Assembly: GCF_000420345.1 (NCBI RefSeq)
Contig: NZ_ATUT01000005.1
Span: 1-64,000, forward strand
Source: Faecalicoccus pleomorphus DSM 20574
Lineage (GTDB): Bacteria; Bacillota_I; Bacilli_A; Erysipelotrichales; Erysipelotrichaceae
Length of the DNA: 64,000 nucleotides
Reading direction: 5' to 3'
Position 1 is the first letter of the stretch; the number at the start of each line of letters is the position of its first letter. The position numbers were made by a program, and so were the translations under genes. The notes under the pieces were generated by a model. That model did not search any database. It was not told the DNA's origin and was given only the letters and a program-made list of their open reading frames with translations. Of the stretch, positions 50,892 to 59,566 are shown one piece after another.

Positions 50892-51701
50892 TTACAAGTT
50901 CTCCAACATATGTGATATTACAGAGTATTCATCATATGGACCAATTTGATAGCTTGCTGCTTCTTTAGCCTGCACAGTACCTGTAGATGGACAATAGGAA
51001 TGTTCAAAACGCTTTAACATCGATAGATCATTTAACCCATCTCCATACACATACACATCTTCATCACGAATATGAAGAAAATCTGCAAGTTCTTTGACCG
51101 CATTTCCTTTTGTCACACCAAAACCTGTTATTTCAGCTAAACTAGTCACACTCGGAGCATTGACAATTTTATCCGCATAGTGTTTTGATAATTCTTCAAT
51201 TTCTTGATACATGTCTTCATGCGTACAATGCAGATTCACTTTATAAATGTCTTTCGATAAAATATCAAAAGGATCACATTGAAAATGATATTTTCTCAAG
51301 TTTTTTGCCATATTTTTTTGAACTTCCCGATTTCTCATTCTTTGATTTTGCATATATATCTTCGTGAAAGTTTCCTCATCCCCTGTCGTATAAATTTCAT
51401 CGAATGTCTGGTATTCAAATTTATACGGCGTTTCAAATAAGAGAAGCCGGATAGTTTCTTTATCCATTGGATGTGAAGAAATGATATGTCCCGCTTTATC
51501 TAAAATACAAGCGCCGTTCATACCAATCAAAAAGGTATCTACCAAACCCGCAGAACGGGTTAACGATAAGTTTCTACCGGTACACACAGTAAAAATATGT
51601 CCCGCTTCAAATATTTTTTCAATACCTTCATTGATTCGATGATCCGATTGATGATTTCTATTCAGTAAAGTTCCGTCTAAATCCGAAGCAAACAATTTCA
51701 T
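50892..51701 (-). CDS. HAD-superfamily Cof-type phosphatase
   Basis: A 269-residue haloacid-dehalogenase phosphatase: motif I FASDLDGTLLN, motif II VCTGRN, Lys in VTKGNAVKELA, motif IV YGDGLNDLSML, with a C2 cap. The ATG at 51699-51701 follows AAAGGAG. A TATAAT (minus, about 51724-51729) between it and the sortase gene may be its own promoter. Substrate unknown; sugar phosphate or FMN-type substrates are common in the family. Confidence 0.87.
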   Translation of the reverse strand: MKLFASDLDGTLLNRNHQSDHRINEGIEKIFEAGHIFTVCTGRNLSLTRSAGLVDTFLIGMNGACILDKAGHIISSHPMDKETIRLLLFETPYKFEYQTFDEIYTTGDEETFTKIYMQNQRMRNREVQKNMAKNLRKYHFQCDPFDILSKDIYKVNLHCTHEDMYQEIEELSKHYADKIVNAPSVTSLAEITGFGVTKGNAVKELADFLHIRDEDVYVYGDGLNDLSMLKRFEHSYCPSTGTVQAKEAASYQIGPYDEYSVISHMLENL

Positions 51702-51734
51702 AGGCAATCTCCTTTGTCCCTATTATACATGGTT

Positions 51735-52526
51735 TCACTTTCTTCGACATCCTATTTTCCGACACAATATCCAACCTGCCACCAATAAAGCTCCAATACT
51801 TGCCAATACTATCCAATGTATAGACAAGGGCCTCTGTATATCTACATTTGCATTCTCTTCTACTCTTGTACCAGTCACTAATAATCGGTGTGAATTGATC
51901 ATATAAGGGGTACACGTCACAAGGGTGGCTAAATCCTGGTTCGCGTCCAAAGGTTCCATTTGAAACGCATCCGGCAAAATGGTATCTATAGAAATCACTT
52001 TATATGTATGAAGTCCTTTGACTGTATAAATAGAAAATGTATCTCCAATTTCCAACTCGTTCAATCTAGAAAACAATGCAGCACCTGGTAGTCCTCTATG
52101 GCCTGCCAACATAGTGTGTGTACCTATACCACCAGATGGAAACGATGTACCACTCAAATGGCCAATCCCCTTTTGTAAGGTGGTATCCGATGTTCCTTCG
52201 TAAATAGGTTCTTTAACTTGAATTTTTGGTATTATGATTTCTCCAATTACATCATGAGCGGCCAGCCGATCATTGATCTTGTATACCTCCTGACCGGAAG
52301 AATATGGGTCACTCACACTTTGATTTAAAGTCGATTGGTTATATTTTTCTATTTCCTTTGCCAGCTGTTCTCGATCTTTATCTTGTATGGATTGAACATA
52401 TTCTTGAAAATCATTAGTACTTTGCATACTACTTTGCTCATGTTCAAAATGATGTACTATTGGATAAAGTACTAAAAGAACACCCAAAACAATCAATGTT
52501 ATATAAATATATTTTTTAAATTTCAT
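51735..52526 (-). CDS. Class C sortase
   Basis: A membrane transpeptidase of 263 residues. One N-terminal helix (about 7-24) and one C-terminal helix (about 236-254) flank the catalytic domain. The triad is His143 (LAGHRG), Cys205 (TLVTCTPY) and Arg214 (NSHRLLVTGTR). The His-Cys spacing (62) and Cys-Arg spacing (9) are those of pilus-type SrtC enzymes, and SDPYSS at 72-77 resembles their DP(F/W/Y) lid. It should link or anchor LPxTG proteins, most simply the LPSTG adhesin encoded upstream. A terminator separates the two genes. Confidence 0.93.
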   Translation of the reverse strand: MKFKKYIYITLIVLGVLLVLYPIVHHFEHEQSSMQSTNDFQEYVQSIQDKDREQLAKEIEKYNQSTLNQSVSDPYSSGQEVYKINDRLAAHDVIGEIIIPKIQVKEPIYEGTSDTTLQKGIGHLSGTSFPSGGIGTHTMLAGHRGLPGAALFSRLNELEIGDTFSIYTVKGLHTYKVISIDTILPDAFQMEPLDANQDLATLVTCTPYMINSHRLLVTGTRVEENANVDIQRPLSIHWIVLASIGALLVAGWILCRKIGCRRK

Positions 52527-52536
52527 ATTCTTTTCT

Positions 52537-52562
52537 AAAAAGACAGGCTATTTTGCCTGTCT
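52537..52562 (-). terminator. Internal terminator between adhesin and sortase genes
   Basis: AGACAGGC and GCCTGTCT (52541-52548 and 52555-52562) with a six-base loop, then TTTTT on the minus strand. It overlaps the adhesin stop and lies 11 bases before the sortase start, so sortase is made by readthrough at a lower level. Confidence 0.75.
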
Positions 52563-55500
52563 TATTTCTTTTTATTCTTTCGGAATCCCTTCCAACCGAT
52601 TCCTGTCAATATAAGACCTGATATCGTATAGAATAGAGAACCTATTCCTCCCGTAGAAGGAAGAATGATTCGATTAGAAATTTCATAGACGATCTGGATC
52701 GTCTTGGTTTCCGTAGAGGGATCGACATTTTCTGCTTCCACTTTCTCCATGGAAGGTTTTTCATATCCCTGTGAACTCAAGTCTGGAGAGACAACCTCGC
52801 TCCATTCTCCATCTGTATGCATCCAAGCCTGATCTGGGTCTTCGGTATCTACTTGATTATCATCATTGGTATCATAGCCTAACACTTCACCTGTCACTTT
52901 ATCAATGATCACATGTCGTTCAAATTCAACTGTCTGCTCCACAGAATCCGCTACATTTTCTTTTGTCATTCCATCGATATATTCAATCGTTCGTGTAGTG
53001 GATTTTTGAAGATTTTCTTTGCCTGCTTCTTTAGACCAGACACTTTCACTGCCATCGATAGGATCTCCCGGTGTTTTCGCATTGTCAGGAGTGATTGTTT
53101 CATACGTATGTTCCAGATGAATGATTACAACCTGATCAGTGGATGGATCTATGTCAAAGTGTTCCGGCAGTGTATCCACTCTCACGATCGCATACCCTTT
53201 TGTACCATAGCCATCTGCAATCTTCTGCAAATCCTCCTGAGTCTTGTTCAAAGATGCTCCGGAAGGTCCGGTATCTAAAAGAACATTGTCTTCCAGTGTT
53301 TTCTTAGCCGTATCATCGATAATCGTATAAACCACCTTTTGTGTGGAACGATTATAGGTAACTGTAACGGTTTCATCACTTGTATTGGATGTCACAACCT
53401 TTTCATCGACTTTAGAAACATCAGGTGCTTCATATCCTTTCGAAGATAAATCCGGTGAGGTTACTTTAGCCCAGGTATTGGAGTTTGTCATCCAGGCTTT
53501 ATCTGCACTTGTAGTATCCACCGTGCCATCCCCATTGGTATCATAGCCTAGTACTTCACCAGTCACTTTATCCACAACCACATGACGAGTGAATGTAACA
53601 GTTTGTTCAACCGAATCGGCCACTTTTTCCTTGGTTAGACCATCTACATAATTAATCGTTCGTGTGATTGATTTTTGAAGAGAAACTTGATCCACTCCAT
53701 CCGGCCAATTTGACTCACTACCATCAATTGGATCTCCAGGGGTTTGTGGATTGTCTGGAGTCACCGTAACAGTCGCATGCTTTAGATGAACGACAATCTC
53801 TTGATCTTTTGAAGTATCGCTATCAAAGGTACCTGGTAGTTCATCTTGTGAAACCACTTCATAGCTTTTGTCCGTATAGGTTTTGATTATCACATCGAAA
53901 TCCTTTTGTGTTTTATGTAAGTTGGTTTCTGAAGCACCACTGTCGAATGCAACTTTATCTTCTAAAGTCTTCTTGGTACTGTCATCGATAATCGTATAAA
54001 CCACTTTTTGGGTATCCGCTTTGATATAGACATACGCATCCATTTCCCCTGTAAAGGTTCCCTGTGCAGCCGCATCATCTTGTTGGACAATTTGATACCC
54101 TGCTGGTGCCTGCACGTCATTTTGGTACGTTTCATTTTTGACACCGTTAAGTTCCCGTTTCAAGCTATCTACTTCAGTACCATCACTTGGTGTCCATGTG
54201 TCCTTAGGACTTGCCCCCGTTATGTCAATATAGTGTACCGTCACCTTGTATTCTTTTTGTTTATAAAGATAAACAACATCCTGTGCCTGATCATCTAGGG
54301 TACCTTTTTCTTTTCCTTGCGCCAATCCTATATAGGTATAATCATCCACGTCAACAGGTGATGTTGTAAAAGAATCATAAGAGGCTCCTGTACCATCTGT
54401 ATTTCGGCCCGTAATCACTTTCGGATCCGCAACATCCACATCTGTAGGAGTGGTCCCATCTTTGGTTTCTTTGTAGTAAGCATGGATTTGCGGCGTACCA
54501 TAAATCTTCGTTTCTAAATCTGTTCGATTGCTTAAAGTGCCCAATCCCTGATCATCGTTATGGGCATAACTATAAGTTGGTATAATAGCTGTTTGTCCGA
54601 TACTCTGATCATTGATATTTTCAACTTGAATTGGCAAATAGGCAACCATCTGTACTTTGGTTTGAATGGCAGAAGAGCTTAATGCCACACTTCGAATACT
54701 GGACCAATCTTTCACTTGATCCTCTGTCATCCAATCCTCAGAATTTAATTCGATCCTCACATTGGAATTTGCCTTTGGCAGGTCAAGCGATTTTGTAGAA
54801 TAGTACAATGTGCCAACAGTTTCTACTCTTCCTGGTCCTGTCAACATCAAAGAATACGAATCATTTCTAGGCAGTATCGCAATCGCCTGTCCATTGATAT
54901 AGTCATAGTTTGTACTATTTGTGATTGCTAAACGAAGAATTCCTTTTGATTTATCATCGCTAGTATCACTTTTAACACCTCGATCAAAGCCGGCTGCTCC
55001 TGCTCCTTGTCCATAATAGGCTGTAAGACTTGTTTTTTCACCAGACACCCCATTTTTAAAGCCTACAATGGTTGGAATCGTAATTTTCCATGCTTTCCCT
55101 TTGCCTCCATCGTATACTTTTCCGCCATATTTAGGATGCGTGGCAGGATCATTTTGATCAATCACACGAGTGACCCAGTCCGTTGTTCCTTGAGCCGATA
55201 CAGCCATGTCACTGACTTTAAATGGAATCTGATTTGGATAGAAAAACGAACCCATATTAGCATTTTTAGGCACGTTGACCTCATACATTGAAAAATCAAA
55301 TTGCGTCACATGTTCTCCACTTTCATCGATGCCTAAATCAGTAATCACTGGATAGTATTTTTTCTTACTTTCCGGATGTGTCCATCCATAATCCCCCAAT
55401 TTAGAATAATCTACATCAATGGCTTGATGGGCAATGCTTCGTACTTGAACGACAGGTAAGCGCACATAATGAGGACGGTCAATGGCCGATTCAGGCAATA

Positions 55501-57505
55501 TGATTTTATTTTCAGTATCCTCTGGTACAGCTGTTTCCATCCCCAAGCCAGACCAACCATATTTACCTGAAATCAGTTGGCCCTGGGTATAGGTTCCACT
55601 CATATCATAATTCATACTATTCGCAATACTATAAGCCGTGCCCGCAATCGTATAGTCATCAAAATATTTTAAATGCCCTACGACATCAATATCTGTATCC
55701 GATGTTACACTATGAACATGTATTTGAATGGGAACCTGCTGACCACTTTGGTACGTTCCATCTTCAATAACCGCATTTTTTAATCGTACAGAAATATTGT
55801 TGCCTGGTAAAATGTTGGCTTCTCCTTCAATGCTGACAATGTGGACTCCATTGGAAAGAGCAGCATCAATCTGGGCATTGCTTGATTTAATAGAATTCAC
55901 TTCAATGACTTCACCTGTATCCAAAGTAATTTGAAAAGGTCCATTGTCTCCTTCATTGTTCGATTGAGAAACACTTCCTCTTACTCCCGTGCTGATAATC
56001 ACATCCGTAATATTTCCACACCAATTTTTCGGAAGTGTGATTTTGTATGTACGCAAAGTATTGGTTTGGTTCGTTTTTTCATCTTCAAAATCCACACCAA
56101 TATACGGCATTTTCTCATTCACACCGGGTTTATCACTCTTCCCAGTCAAGAAACCTGTCACTTTATATTCATCGCTGATGGATTTCGCATAAAATCCTTC
56201 ATGTTCGAGATCCACATCATTTTTACTATAGCCTTCCAGAACAAAACCATATTTACCCGTCATAACACCAGGGTTGGCCTGACCAAGAATCACCGTCGAT
56301 AGATTTCGATTTTGAACCGGTACTGTCATTTCACCTCCACCTAAAAATTTAGGGGACAAGGTTAGTTCCGGTGTAAATTGATAGGTACCTTTCGGAGTAC
56401 CTTTTTCAAAATAACCATAAAAATAATGGTGAGATACGGGATAGTTGCTGTAACCTGCACCTTGTATATTAGTAATCACAATATCTCCGCCAGGTCCGTC
56501 CGGTTGAGATACCCCTGTTGGAATCCCCGGTACCTTTTTTTCATCCGAGTCAATATTGTTGGAATTGCCCCACCAATTATGCATCGAGGCCCCTTTTAAT
56601 ACAAATCCCTTTGGTACGTGAATCACACCATTCATCGTTGGGTTGTTGGCTACACCAAATCCCATGATAGGATCATTGCGTGCAGGATCATGTACGATAT
56701 CCATAGTAAAAGTGTAAATGGATTTGCCATCGGCTGTAAATGTATTATCCGGTCGGGCATTGTTTTTTACATCTGCCACAAAATCCATGGTTTCCGGGTT
56801 GTTGACATAAATGGTTCCTTCTAAATGTGCACTCGGTGCCTCTACAATCACTTTTAAATCCGTGTTTCCCGGGGCAAATTGATAGTTGTTATAATTGCCG
56901 TTAGAACCATATGGATACAATCCAAACTTATAAGACACATTAAAAGTAATCAAAGCATCATTGGGAGAACTGTTTGTATATGTCAAGAGGGTACCATTGT
57001 TTTGATCCATCGACTTTACAACCTTATAACCATCCGGTGTATCATGATTCACCTCCGATAGACCTGCCGGCAGATAAACCGTAAAAGACTCATATCCTTT
57101 GACCATCAATGAAACCTGAAATTGTGCCGCCTTATTATCAGCACTTGGCCAATTCAATCCCGCAGGATCCAATGTATAAGAAATCTCATGATCAATGGTG
57201 TTTGTCGTAGGTGTCATATCAATAGCATTCGCACTTCCAACCGCCTCTGTAGCCGGTGACTCTTCAACCGGTTGTACATCTTCTGCAGCCGGCAAAGTCT
57301 GCTCTTCTGGTTTTTTCTCTGTATTCAAATCCGGATTGGTTTCGACTTTCGATGAATCTTCCGATGGAAGAGAAGAAGTATTAGCTTCGTTGGCAGAAGA
57401 CGATTCCGTTTCCTGTGCCTGCACCCCCACTGTCTGTATCAACATCGTGGATGCGGTTAAAAATGATAAACCACTACTATATAGCTTTTTCTTTCTTTTC
57501 TTCAT
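52562..57505 (-). CDS. Large LPSTG-anchored mucin-binding-type adhesin
   Basis: A 1647-residue surface protein. Residues 1-31 are an export signal (KKRKKK then a hydrophobic core ending VGVQAQ); a Ser/Glu/Pro/Thr-rich spacer follows to about 90; then a 1000-residue beta-rich region with no family I recognise; a MucBP-like unit (YKVTVHYIDITG.., about 1145-1210); and two tandem repeats of 223 residues, each with a KVVYTIIDD MucBP-like part and a TRTINYVDGLTKE Mub-B2-like part. The C-terminus has LPSTG (1615-1619), a hydrophobic helix and KNKKK, the sortase signal. The ATG at 57503-57505 follows AAAGGGGAG and overlaps the upstream stop (ATGA). Expected role: adhesion to mucus or host glycans. 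Confidence 0.9.
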   Translation of the reverse strand: MKKRKKKLYSSGLSFLTASTMLIQTVGVQAQETESSSANEANTSSLPSEDSSKVETNPDLNTEKKPEEQTLPAAEDVQPVEESPATEAVGSANAIDMTPTTNTIDHEISYTLDPAGLNWPSADNKAAQFQVSLMVKGYESFTVYLPAGLSEVNHDTPDGYKVVKSMDQNNGTLLTYTNSSPNDALITFNVSYKFGLYPYGSNGNYNNYQFAPGNTDLKVIVEAPSAHLEGTIYVNNPETMDFVADVKNNARPDNTFTADGKSIYTFTMDIVHDPARNDPIMGFGVANNPTMNGVIHVPKGFVLKGASMHNWWGNSNNIDSDEKKVPGIPTGVSQPDGPGGDIVITNIQGAGYSNYPVSHHYFYGYFEKGTPKGTYQFTPELTLSPKFLGGGEMTVPVQNRNLSTVILGQANPGVMTGKYGFVLEGYSKNDVDLEHEGFYAKSISDEYKVTGFLTGKSDKPGVNEKMPYIGVDFEDEKTNQTNTLRTYKITLPKNWCGNITDVIISTGVRGSVSQSNNEGDNGPFQITLDTGEVIEVNSIKSSNAQIDAALSNGVHIVSIEGEANILPGNNISVRLKNAVIEDGTYQSGQQVPIQIHVHSVTSDTDIDVVGHLKYFDDYTIAGTAYSIANSMNYDMSGTYTQGQLISGKYGWSGLGMETAVPEDTENKIILPESAIDRPHYVRLPVVQVRSIAHQAIDVDYSKLGDYGWTHPESKKKYYPVITDLGIDESGEHVTQFDFSMYEVNVPKNANMGSFFYPNQIPFKVSDMAVSAQGTTDWVTRVIDQNDPATHPKYGGKVYDGGKGKAWKITIPTIVGFKNGVSGEKTSLTAYYGQGAGAAGFDRGVKSDTSDDKSKGILRLAITNSTNYDYINGQAIAILPRNDSYSLMLTGPGRVETVGTLYYSTKSLDLPKANSNVRIELNSEDWMTEDQVKDWSSIRSVALSSSAIQTKVQMVAYLPIQVENINDQSIGQTAIIPTYSYAHNDDQGLGTLSNRTDLETKIYGTPQIHAYYKETKDGTTPTDVDVADPKVITGRNTDGTGASYDSFTTSPVDVDDYTYIGLAQGKEKGTLDDQAQDVVYLYKQKEYKVTVHYIDITGASPKDTWTPSDGTEVDSLKRELNGVKNETYQNDVQAPAGYQIVQQDDAAAQGTFTGEMDAYVYIKADTQKVVYTIIDDSTKKTLEDKVAFDSGASETNLHKTQKDFDVIIKTYTDKSYEVVSQDELPGTFDSDTSKDQEIVVHLKHATVTVTPDNPQTPGDPIDGSESNWPDGVDQVSLQKSITRTINYVDGLTKEKVADSVEQTVTFTRHVVVDKVTGEVLGYDTNGDGTVDTTSADKAWMTNSNTWAKVTSPDLSSKGYEAPDVSKVDEKVVTSNTSDETVTVTYNRSTQKVVYTIIDDTAKKTLEDNVLLDTGPSGASLNKTQEDLQKIADGYGTKGYAIVRVDTLPEHFDIDPSTDQVVIIHLEHTYETITPDNAKTPGDPIDGSESVWSKEAGKENLQKSTTRTIEYIDGMTKENVADSVEQTVEFERHVIIDKVTGEVLGYDTNDDNQVDTEDPDQAWMHTDGEWSEVVSPDLSSQGYEKPSMEKVEAENVDPSTETKTIQIVYEISNRIILPSTGGIGSLFYTISGLILTGIGWKGFRKNKKK
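52690..54007 (-). repeat. Two tandem 669-bp repeats encoding mucin-binding-type units
   Basis: The start of the unit (encoding KVVYTIIDD) lies at 54007 and again at 53338, exactly 669 bases or 223 codons apart. The units are clearly diverged (for example TRTINYVDGLTKEKVADS against TRTIEYIDGMTKENVADS), so this is an old in-frame duplication and not an assembly artefact. Confidence 0.85.
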
Positions 57506-58119
57506 CTGCGACTCCCCTTTCTTCTCCAAATGATCCATACCACGATTCCTAAGGCGACTATACCCGACATCAACCATATTTTTTGATCCAGATTTGCACT
57601 TGTAGAGGCCCCTTTACTAGAAGCTTCTTGTTTAAAATCTGGCGCGGATGGATGAGATGCATCTGATGATACAATCACTTTTGGATGGATCACATTACTT
57701 GTTTGTGACAATGGACTGATAAACAAGACCGAGACTACTTGTAAAGTGTCTGTGGCATCCATTTGACGAACATAGTACACCCCTTTTTCCAATGAGCAGT
57801 GAAGGCTTCCATTTTCATCACTTTTAAAAGAAGCATTGATAAGTGTATAAGAGGAATCCAGTTCTTTTTGAGATTGTTGATCCAATTCTTTTAAGGTCTG
57901 ATTATATTGTTTCTGCCCTTTTGCATCTGTTTCTCGATTCAAAAAGATTGATTTCCATGAATCCGGAAGTTTCCATATCCCATACGTAATTTCTTGATGT
58001 ACATTATCGGGTTGGATATCAATATTCTGTGCTTCTGATTGTGCATAGACAGAACTGCCACCCAAACAAACGCAACATATAATACATATATATACAATAT
58101 ATATTTTCGCCCTTTTCAT
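57502..58119 (-). CDS. Small surface protein with pilin-like domain and C-terminal anchor
   Basis: A 205-residue exported protein: signal peptide (1-27, cleavage near SVYAQ), then a domain with ITYGIWKLPDSWK and GSLHCSLEKGVYYVRQMDA, which recalls the N-terminal domain of Gram-positive pilins (a LYKLP start and a G.YYV strand). The end is ASTSANLDQ, a hydrophobic helix, then WRRKGSRR. LPxTG is absent; TSANL stands in its place, as in the protein at 24842. The ATG follows AAGGAG. It is the first gene of the adhesin-sortase operon and overlaps the adhesin start by 4 bases. Minor pilin or adhesin partner is an inference. Confidence 0.7.
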   Translation of the reverse strand: MKRAKIYIVYICIICCVCLGGSSVYAQSEAQNIDIQPDNVHQEITYGIWKLPDSWKSIFLNRETDAKGQKQYNQTLKELDQQSQKELDSSYTLINASFKSDENGSLHCSLEKGVYYVRQMDATDTLQVVSVLFISPLSQTSNVIHPKVIVSSDASHPSAPDFKQEASSKGASTSANLDQKIWLMSGIVALGIVVWIIWRRKGSRR

Positions 58120-58161
58120 TGTCCTATTCTCCTTTTTGACCATTTTAGTATTGTGGTCATT

Positions 58162-58195
58162 TACAGTATTTTAACACATTCTTACTGTATTACAA
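58162..58195 (-). promoter_or_regulatory. Promoter with embedded dyad for the adhesin operon
   Basis: On the minus strand TTGTAA (58195-58190), 16 bases, TAAAAT (58173-58168). The dyad TACAGTA/TACTGTA (58162-58168 and 58183-58189) spans the spacer and -10, as an operator would. Confidence 0.5.
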
Positions 58196-58285: not shown

Positions 58286-59566
58286 ATGAAACATCAAGGA
58301 ATTGGAACTCAATGTGTACAAGGCGGATATACGCCAGGTAATGGAGAACCTCGTCAGATTCCCATTGTACAAAGCACAACATTTAAATATGCTACCAGCG
58401 AGGATATGGGAAAATTATTTGATTTGGAAGCTAGCGGGTATTTCTACACTCGCCTTCAAAATCCCACAAATGATGCAGTAGCTGCTAAAATCGCCGAGTT
58501 AGAAGGTGGTACAGCCGCCATGTTGACAAGCAGTGGACAGGCAGCAAATCTATTTGCCATCTTCAACATTGCCGGAAACGGAGATCATATCGTCGCATCC
58601 AATAGTATTTATGGCGGAACTTATAACTTGTTTGCGGTTACTATGAAACGTATGGGCATCGATTTTACGTTTGTGGATCCAGATTGTTCTAGTGAAGAAC
58701 TGGATGCCGCTTTTCAAGAAAACACAAAGGCTGTATTTGGAGAAACCATCGCCAATCCGGCATTAACCGTCTTAGACATCGAAAAATTTGCACAGGCAGC
58801 CCATGCTCATGGAGTCCCTTTGATCGTGGACAATACGTTTGCAACCCCCATCCTTTGTCGTCCTTTTGAATGGGGAGCCGATATCATCACACATTCCACG
58901 ACTAAATATATGGACGGGCATGGAGTGGCCGTCGGTGGATGTATTGTGGATTCCGGAAAATTTGACTGGACCAAATACCCGGATAAATTCCCTGGATTGA
59001 CCACACCTGATGAAAGCTATCATGGCATTACGTATACCGAACGTTTTGGCTTGGAGGGAGCTTTTATCACAAAGGCAACCGCTCAGCTGATGCGCGACTT
59101 AGGCTGTATACAGTCTCCTCAAAATGCTTTTTATTTAAATCTGGGTCTGGAAAGCCTGCATGTTCGTATGCCTCGTCACAGTCAAAATGCATTGGCCGTG
59201 GCTCAATTCTTATCCAAACATCCAAAAATTCGTTCGGTTCAATACAGTGGATTAAAAGGGGATACCTACTACGATTTAGCACAAAAATATCTGCCTGACG
59301 GATCTTGTGGTGTCGTTAGCTTTGAAATCCAGGGTGGTAGAAGTGCAGCCGAAAAATTCATGAAACATTTAAAACTGGCGGCTATTGAAACCCATGTAGC
59401 GGATGCTCGTACGTGCTGCCTTCATCCTGCCAGCACGACCCACAGACAAATGAATGACGAAGAATTAAAAGCAGCCGGTATCAGTGCTGATATGGTTCGT
59501 TTCTCCTGTGGCTTGGAAGACGCACAAGATTTAATCGATGACATTGATCAAGCATTGAATGCTTAG
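58286..59566 (+). CDS. metY: O-acetylhomoserine sulfhydrylase, operon copy
   Basis: PLP enzyme forming homocysteine from O-acetylhomoserine and sulfide; 426 residues. RLQNPTNDAVAAKIAELEGG, the PLP-lysine region HSTTKYMDGHGVAVGG and the C-terminal CCLHPASTTHRQM define the family. The start follows GAAAGAGGA. It lies 9 bases before metA, which makes its substrate. It differs from the T-box-controlled copy at 33199 throughout, so the two are old paralogues or separately acquired genes. Confidence 0.93.
   Translation: MKHQGIGTQCVQGGYTPGNGEPRQIPIVQSTTFKYATSEDMGKLFDLEASGYFYTRLQNPTNDAVAAKIAELEGGTAAMLTSSGQAANLFAIFNIAGNGDHIVASNSIYGGTYNLFAVTMKRMGIDFTFVDPDCSSEELDAAFQENTKAVFGETIANPALTVLDIEKFAQAAHAHGVPLIVDNTFATPILCRPFEWGADIITHSTTKYMDGHGVAVGGCIVDSGKFDWTKYPDKFPGLTTPDESYHGITYTERFGLEGAFITKATAQLMRDLGCIQSPQNAFYLNLGLESLHVRMPRHSQNALAVAQFLSKHPKIRSVQYSGLKGDTYYDLAQKYLPDGSCGVVSFEIQGGRSAAEKFMKHLKLAAIETHVADARTCCLHPASTTHRQMNDEELKAAGISADMVRFSCGLEDAQDLIDDIDQALNA

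Follow-up and report, generated by a model that had tools for sequence, protein, structure and literature searches.

Three intact genes lie side by side on the minus strand of contig NZ_ATUT01000005.1 of Faecalicoccus pleomorphus DSM 20574, within the 64,000-nucleotide stretch analysed here as a whole and referred to as the window. They occupy positions 51735-58119 and encode, in this order, a small pilin-like protein (gene 1), a giant adhesin and a sortase (SrtC) (Table 1), and all three are present where an earlier note on this DNA had placed a compact sortase C locus. A HAD hydrolase gene (50892-51707; Hydrolase_3) and a divergent gene starting at 58286 flank the cassette. The stop codon of gene 1 overlaps the start codon of the adhesin gene in an ATGA, and a GGGGAG resembling a ribosome-binding site lies within gene 1 ahead of the adhesin start (by eye), which suggests that translation of the two genes may be coupled.

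The sortase matches NCBIfam NF033745 (class C sortase) with 225.5 bits against a cut-off of 160. It carries the triad H143/C205/R214, which lines up with that of solved class C sortases, the motif TLVTC, a DPY lid at residues 73-75 and, as read from the sequence, a hydrophobic membrane segment at its C-terminus. By these features SrtC is a class C (pilus-type) sortase, in agreement with the assignment made earlier from the triad and the lid. Relatives at an expectation value (E) <= 1e-15 were found in 41 of 195 genomes of the taxonomic family, its own included. The genome holds three PF04203 matches in total; the two besides SrtC are both class B (TIGR03064 over cut-off), and no class A sortase was found in this genome, given as 99.9% complete. 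A scan of genome contigs with the sortase returned two weak loci.

The adhesin is composed of a signal peptide, a head of ~1100 residues, MucBP_2 and Muc_B2 repeats in its C-terminal third (three and two stretches, respectively) and the sorting signal LPSTGGIGS. Both the mucin-binding-type domains and the single LPxTG protein described earlier were recovered, the only such motif being the adhesin's LPSTG. Its domains and LPxTG motif identify the protein as a MucBP-type LPxTG adhesin; repeats of this type would serve attachment, and the domain names suggest mucin as a putative ligand. The head has no Pfam match, and a search of 315 genomes of the order returned only its own copy. No D1 pilin domain was shown by the adhesin. 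The head contains two strand-PKN sites, ITLPKN and VNVPKN (none of 5000 shuffles reached two), which lie in a recurrent VxLP strand pattern that is present elsewhere without the lysine. The tail has the form LPxTGGxG[TSN], which is shared by 38 of 65 large LPxTG proteins upstream of SrtC versus none of 41 small downstream proteins, and by none of the nine other tails listed from its genome.

The best start of gene 1 is at 58119, with AGGAG as ribosome-binding site (by eye), giving a protein with a signal peptide, a C-terminal membrane segment (residues 179-200) and no LPxTG. At E <= 1e-3 only its own copy was found in the 195 family genomes. Searching the first 20 SrtC stretches with full-length gene 1 (phmmer) gave three hits (E 1.4e-5, 2.1e-4 and 1.2e-3), all of them small secreted membrane proteins beside SrtC, with a signal that came partly from the membrane tail. 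A first iterative profile of gene 1, which kept signal peptides and membrane segments, drifted into sortases and was discarded. The accepted profile was a held-out one, built from trimmed cores with three neighbours as seed and grown to 51 members without gene 1 ever being included. The gene 1 core matched it in successive rounds at E 1e-3, 1.9e-5, 1.4e-6 and 1.3e-5, and among the 172 open reading frames (ORFs) of the window gene 1 scored best at E 7.4e-6, the next reaching 0.073, which bears out the earlier description of the first gene as pilin-like. The profile also matches solved pilins, best of all 4hss (a putative fimbrial subunit, which we take to be SpaD; E 2.8e-20), whose YPK motif aligns with the PK of the profile.

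Gene 1 was aligned by MAFFT with 19 profile members picked for spread (alignment A1), to which it is 12-22% identical, revealing Gly104, Gly113, Tyr115, Pro136 and Lys147 as invariant. Lys147 belongs to the motif SNVIHPK and aligns with the PK lysine of the relatives, all 19 other rows having K there; the earlier statement that no classical pilin motif was seen was half right, and it is this lysine that speaks against it. The PK lysine occupies its profile column in 86% of the 51 members, and few positions in the family are as constant. Of the 20 rows, 11 match Pfam GramPos_pilinD1 and 17 the NCBIfam SpaH/EbpB model; gene 1 matches neither. In a structural second look with a weak gene 1 model, pilins made up the top seven matches, namely the SpaB basal pilin (Z 6.3), the ancillary pilin 4oq1 (Z 6.1), LrpA, SSA1632, GBS52, PilA and CppA, where Z < 8 can reflect a common arrangement. 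An hhalign comparison between A1 and gene 1 was circular and was not used. Profile and alignment together place gene 1 in a basal-pilin-like (pilin D1) family whose genes neighbour those of class C sortases in the same taxonomic family. Like a basal pilin it is encoded with SrtC and a tip adhesin; it is not a canonical one, because the LPxTG sorting signal is missing.

The family genomes offered 84 SrtC places besides the window's own, of which 60 stretches were fetched. A shaft pilin, taken as a D1 protein of 400-800 residues, is present in 44 of these 60 clusters, every one of the 44 identified by its D1 domain, and the gene order seen repeatedly runs from giant (tip) adhesin through shaft pilin and SrtC to small base. 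Small D1 proteins within 200 nucleotides of a SrtC number 45, spread over 44 loci. The window locus comprises giant, base and SrtC, with neither a shaft pilin nor a shaft remnant in the cassette, and no protein in the genome exceeds the NF033902 cut-off used for shaft pilins; as the shaft is missing, the locus is not a canonical pilus. Several of the 16 shaft-less clusters are cut by stretch ends, and some of the small proteins counted as bases carry LPxTG upstream of SrtC. One locus (L064, with L132; contig C32 of genome G183) resembles that of the window, with a giant of 1892 residues, a base of 326 residues, SrtC and no shaft. Recombinase-like genes lie upstream of its giant.

Sorting signals were surveyed in 40 bases within 500 nucleotides downstream of SrtC. 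Of these, 33 have a C-terminal membrane segment, and a [LIVM]Px[TSP]G motif is present in nine of the 33 and absent from 24. A second sortase-like gene of ~200 codons follows directly downstream of 8 of 9 bases with the motif versus 1 of 22 without it (Fisher p 1e-5, not a true probability since the loci are related; seven bases without a membrane segment and two too near a contig end were left out). Five of the second sortases were scanned and none was over any class-specific cut-off. Of the 24 LPxTG-less bases, 14 show a TG ahead of their membrane segment (in one of the 14, L048, it falls inside the segment); 2000 shuffles gave a mean of 3.7 such bases and never more than 10. A base signal of this TG type would suit class B sortases, which occur in 37 of these 40 genomes at E <= 1e-20 (27 over cut-off). 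At the equivalent place gene 1 has the degenerate KGASTS, whose Lys169 stands in A1 opposite the threonine of a TG-type signal in 18 of 19 relatives; the stretch faintly resembles KGVDTG, KGTNTA and KGADTA, tails found on further surface proteins encoded by this genome.

Surface proteins outside the sortase loci of the genome (L006, L007, L011, L012 and L109) end in GxDTG-, GxNTA- or GxDTA-like motifs, not in LPxTG, and such tails, to judge by their motifs, suit a class B housekeeping sortase. A second pilus-type locus is found on contig C13 at ~7.8-11.7 kb (L003, L009 and L113), with a class B sortase, a 402-residue LPPTG protein, a 209-residue protein with a streptococcal pilin isopeptide domain and signal peptidase I. 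On contig C19 (L108 and L112), a 1025-residue surface protein with repeats, an IPTG tail and weak matches to pilin models stands alone, no sortase being found nearby.

In all three congeners the flanking genes are direct neighbours, ~130 bp apart, the ends of this gap align with the window sequence bordering the cassette, and no SrtC relative was found at E <= 1e-15. The cassette is therefore accessory in the genus and was gained here, or lost in the congeners, as a unit. Its G+C content is ordinary (40.1% versus 39.0%), and a comparison of the locus DNA, the adhesin head and gene 1 with plasmids returned only a 67-base srtC-like match in three Lactococcus plasmids. At the srtC end of the cassette, only ~8 bp separate the srtC stop from a -10-like TATAAT that belongs to the downstream HAD gene on the same strand (51722-51737; by eye), so that the HAD gene may also be transcribed from the cassette.

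The region holds no more promoter-like sites than chance would give (21 found, 24.5 expected from shuffles). When it is resampled to first order, 342 of 1000 runs contain at least one dyad like that over the site upstream of gene 1, from which control had been suggested earlier; not exceeding chance, the dyad was dropped as a control element. The hairpin between adhesin and srtC is real (9 bp, -14.6 kcal/mol; none of 500 mononucleotide shuffles as low). Its proposed role as an internal terminator is no more than plausible, as the transcribed strand offers a tail of just TTTTTAG and the terminator predicted here by the consensus scan is on the plus strand only; the hairpin could reduce srtC expression. 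Among relatives, a terminator-like hairpin precedes 3 of the 23 SrtC genes with an upstream gap of 15-300 nucleotides, and it is therefore no general rule; the same strict test returned none for the window.

Table 1. Features of the sortase C cassette in the window (MFE, minimum free energy in kcal/mol).
Feature	Positions	Strand	Basis or remark
Gene 1, 205-residue basal-pilin-like D1 protein	57502-58119	-	Held-out profile and alignment
Adhesin, 1647 residues	52562-57505	-	Domains, LPSTGGIGS sorting signal
srtC, class C sortase, 263 residues	51735-52526	-	NF033745
ATGA overlap, gene 1 stop and adhesin start	57502-57505	-	
HPK, gene 1 residues 145-147, pilin-motif-like, Lys147 proposed acceptor	57679-57687	-	A1 alignment
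KGASTS, gene 1 residues 169-174, degenerate sorting-signal position before membrane segment	57598-57615	-	
Promoter-like site ahead of gene 1, TTGTAA-16-TAAAAT with TG preceding the -10	58168-58195	-	9/12 consensus
Dyad TACAGTA-14-TACTGTA over promoter-like site	58162-58189		Chance level
Hairpin in adhesin-srtC gap, possible attenuator	52540-52563	-	MFE -14.6

With slightly better than even confidence, we read the cassette as a shaft-less pilus consisting of a tip-type adhesin, a basal-pilin-like protein and a class C sortase that joins them. As their overlap suggests, gene 1 and the adhesin would be made together; after export, the C-terminal segment of each would keep it in the membrane. SrtC would then cut the adhesin after the threonine of LPSTG and pass it to Lys147 of gene 1, which would act as the acceptor in place of a shaft subunit. 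Lacking a shaft, the product would not elongate and would be a 1:1 adhesin-base "mini-pilus", not a polymer. The product would stay held by the membrane segment of gene 1, the most likely arrangement because gene 1 has no LPxTG and has a lysine where 18 of 19 relatives have threonine; a weaker option is that one of the genome's class B sortases uses KGASTS to anchor it to the wall. The genes, their domains, the family membership of gene 1, the missing shaft, the sortase set and the insertion site are observations; the covalent link, the acceptor lysine, the mode of anchoring and mucin binding are inferred. A more far-reaching version is tentative and somewhat doubtful: that this is a natural two-subunit mini-pilus in which SrtC solely welds the giant adhesin to a membrane-resident, non-cleavable base, the tether being the membrane and not the wall, and the genome having no class A sortase. 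The cassette would then be one form of a wider basal-pilin family of the clade, in which the anchoring signal matches whichever sortase is available: an LPxTG-type signal alongside a second dedicated sortase, a TG-type one probably alongside class B, and here no signal.

Several observations weigh against a shaft-less pilus with gene 1 as its base. Gene 1 matches no curated family, Pfam and NCBIfam included, and a search with nothing but its trimmed core yields no relatives. When gene 1 is placed on the held-out profile by hmmalign, Lys147 falls in an insert, off the conserved K, because the strand before it is shorter in gene 1; the glycine-to-lysine spacing is 34, compared with mostly 39-44 in the family (range 27-53; measurable in 34 of 51 members). 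Confidence is low in both models of the gene 1 structure (predicted local distance difference test 54 for the core, single-sequence), and Foldseek with the gene 1 model gave no match at E <= 0.001. Gene 1 also comes first in its cassette, while in most of the 44 loci with a base near SrtC the base lies directly downstream of SrtC. An alternative is a decayed or simplified pilus locus, whose shaft has been lost, whose gene 1 is a non-working base and whose adhesin is attached to the wall as a monomer by SrtC or a class B sortase. The absence of a shaft from cassette and genome alike, the low identity of gene 1 and the loss of its sorting signal, and the accessory nature of the cassette are all consistent with decay, but the three ORFs are intact with overlapping starts, no remnant of a shaft is left in the cassette and Lys147 has been kept, so that we hold decay to be unlikely.

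The two strand-PKN sites of the adhesin could themselves be acceptors, in which case SrtC would polymerise the adhesin through its own LPKN or VPKN lysine into an adhesin-only fibre, as the earlier note had considered. A class C sortase, an LPSTG tail and a pair of sites that no shuffle reproduced agree with such a fibre; the recurrence of the VxLP pattern without lysine, however, makes the sites look structural, and the adhesin lacks the D1 domain by which all 44 shafts were found, in a locus without the shaft seen in most clusters. A polymer is accordingly disfavoured; it is more likely that the adhesin becomes linked to the small base-like protein, and we regard the adhesin-only fibre as quite improbable. 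Gene 1 might instead be an accessory that gathers SrtC and adhesin in the membrane with no covalent bond. Many relatives have no LPxTG and some have no clear signal at all, gene 1 among them, as would befit a scaffold, yet the constancy of the PK lysine across the family suits an acceptor better, and a pure scaffold appears very improbable.

To our knowledge, adhesin-base dimers without a shaft are known only from full pilus systems and shaft mutants. The SpaB-SpaC heterodimer of Corynebacterium diphtheriae was reportedly described by Chang et al. in 2011. An arrangement of tip, base and SrtC without a shaft was not found in the literature searched, which comprised open-licence papers, mostly the beginnings of abstracts. 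In C. diphtheriae, the chain is terminated when the base SpaB, which presents a lysine to the pilus sortase, enters it (PMC3297441, PMC11389406). A shaft mutant of Enterococcus faecalis forms dimers or oligomers of tip and/or base, which were likened to the minor-pilin heterodimers of C. diphtheriae (PMC3708956). The SpaB-SpaC heterodimer resembles our proposed product in that tip adhesin and base are joined without a shaft (mentioned in PMC3708956), but its subunits come from a full pilus system, whereas the window locus has no shaft gene.

SpaB-type basal pilins (SpaB of Lactobacillus rhamnosus and of C. diphtheriae, E. faecalis EbpB and Lactococcus lactis YhhB) are, like gene 1, small D1/CnaB-like proteins encoded beside SrtC with a lysine in a PK motif, a correspondence that alignment A1 gives for gene 1 and hmmalign does not; SpaB of L. 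rhamnosus is a single CnaB domain with FPKN (PMC8244301). Gene 1 differs from them in having no LPxTG, a lysine for the threonine of the TG-type signal, HPK instead of FPKN or YPKN, and first place in its cassette. The pil operon of L. lactis, whose order yhgD-yhgE-srtC-yhhB is the usual order of the related loci, shares tip, SrtC and base with the cassette and differs in its shaft, the LPxTG of its base and its class A sortase (PMC3516528). The VR-10B pilus of Clostridium perfringens is proposed to have a base pilin that carries a class B sorting signal; this base, too, is not of class A type and the genome relies on class B sortases, but a class B sortase assembles the pilus and a shaft is present (PMC8088525), and the C13 locus of the F. 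pleomorphus genome is more like it. With MucBP/Muc_B2 LPxTG adhesins, finally, the window adhesin shares MucBP_2, Muc_B2 and LPxTG, and it departs from them in its orphan head of ~1100 residues and its dedicated class C sortase.

If the shaft-less reading is true, class C sortases would serve purposes beyond the building of fibres, and the cassette would be a minimal three-gene system for how a class C sortase chooses its lysine acceptor. The link between an LPxTG-like motif on the base and a second sortase makes the anchoring of LPxTG-less bases directly testable.

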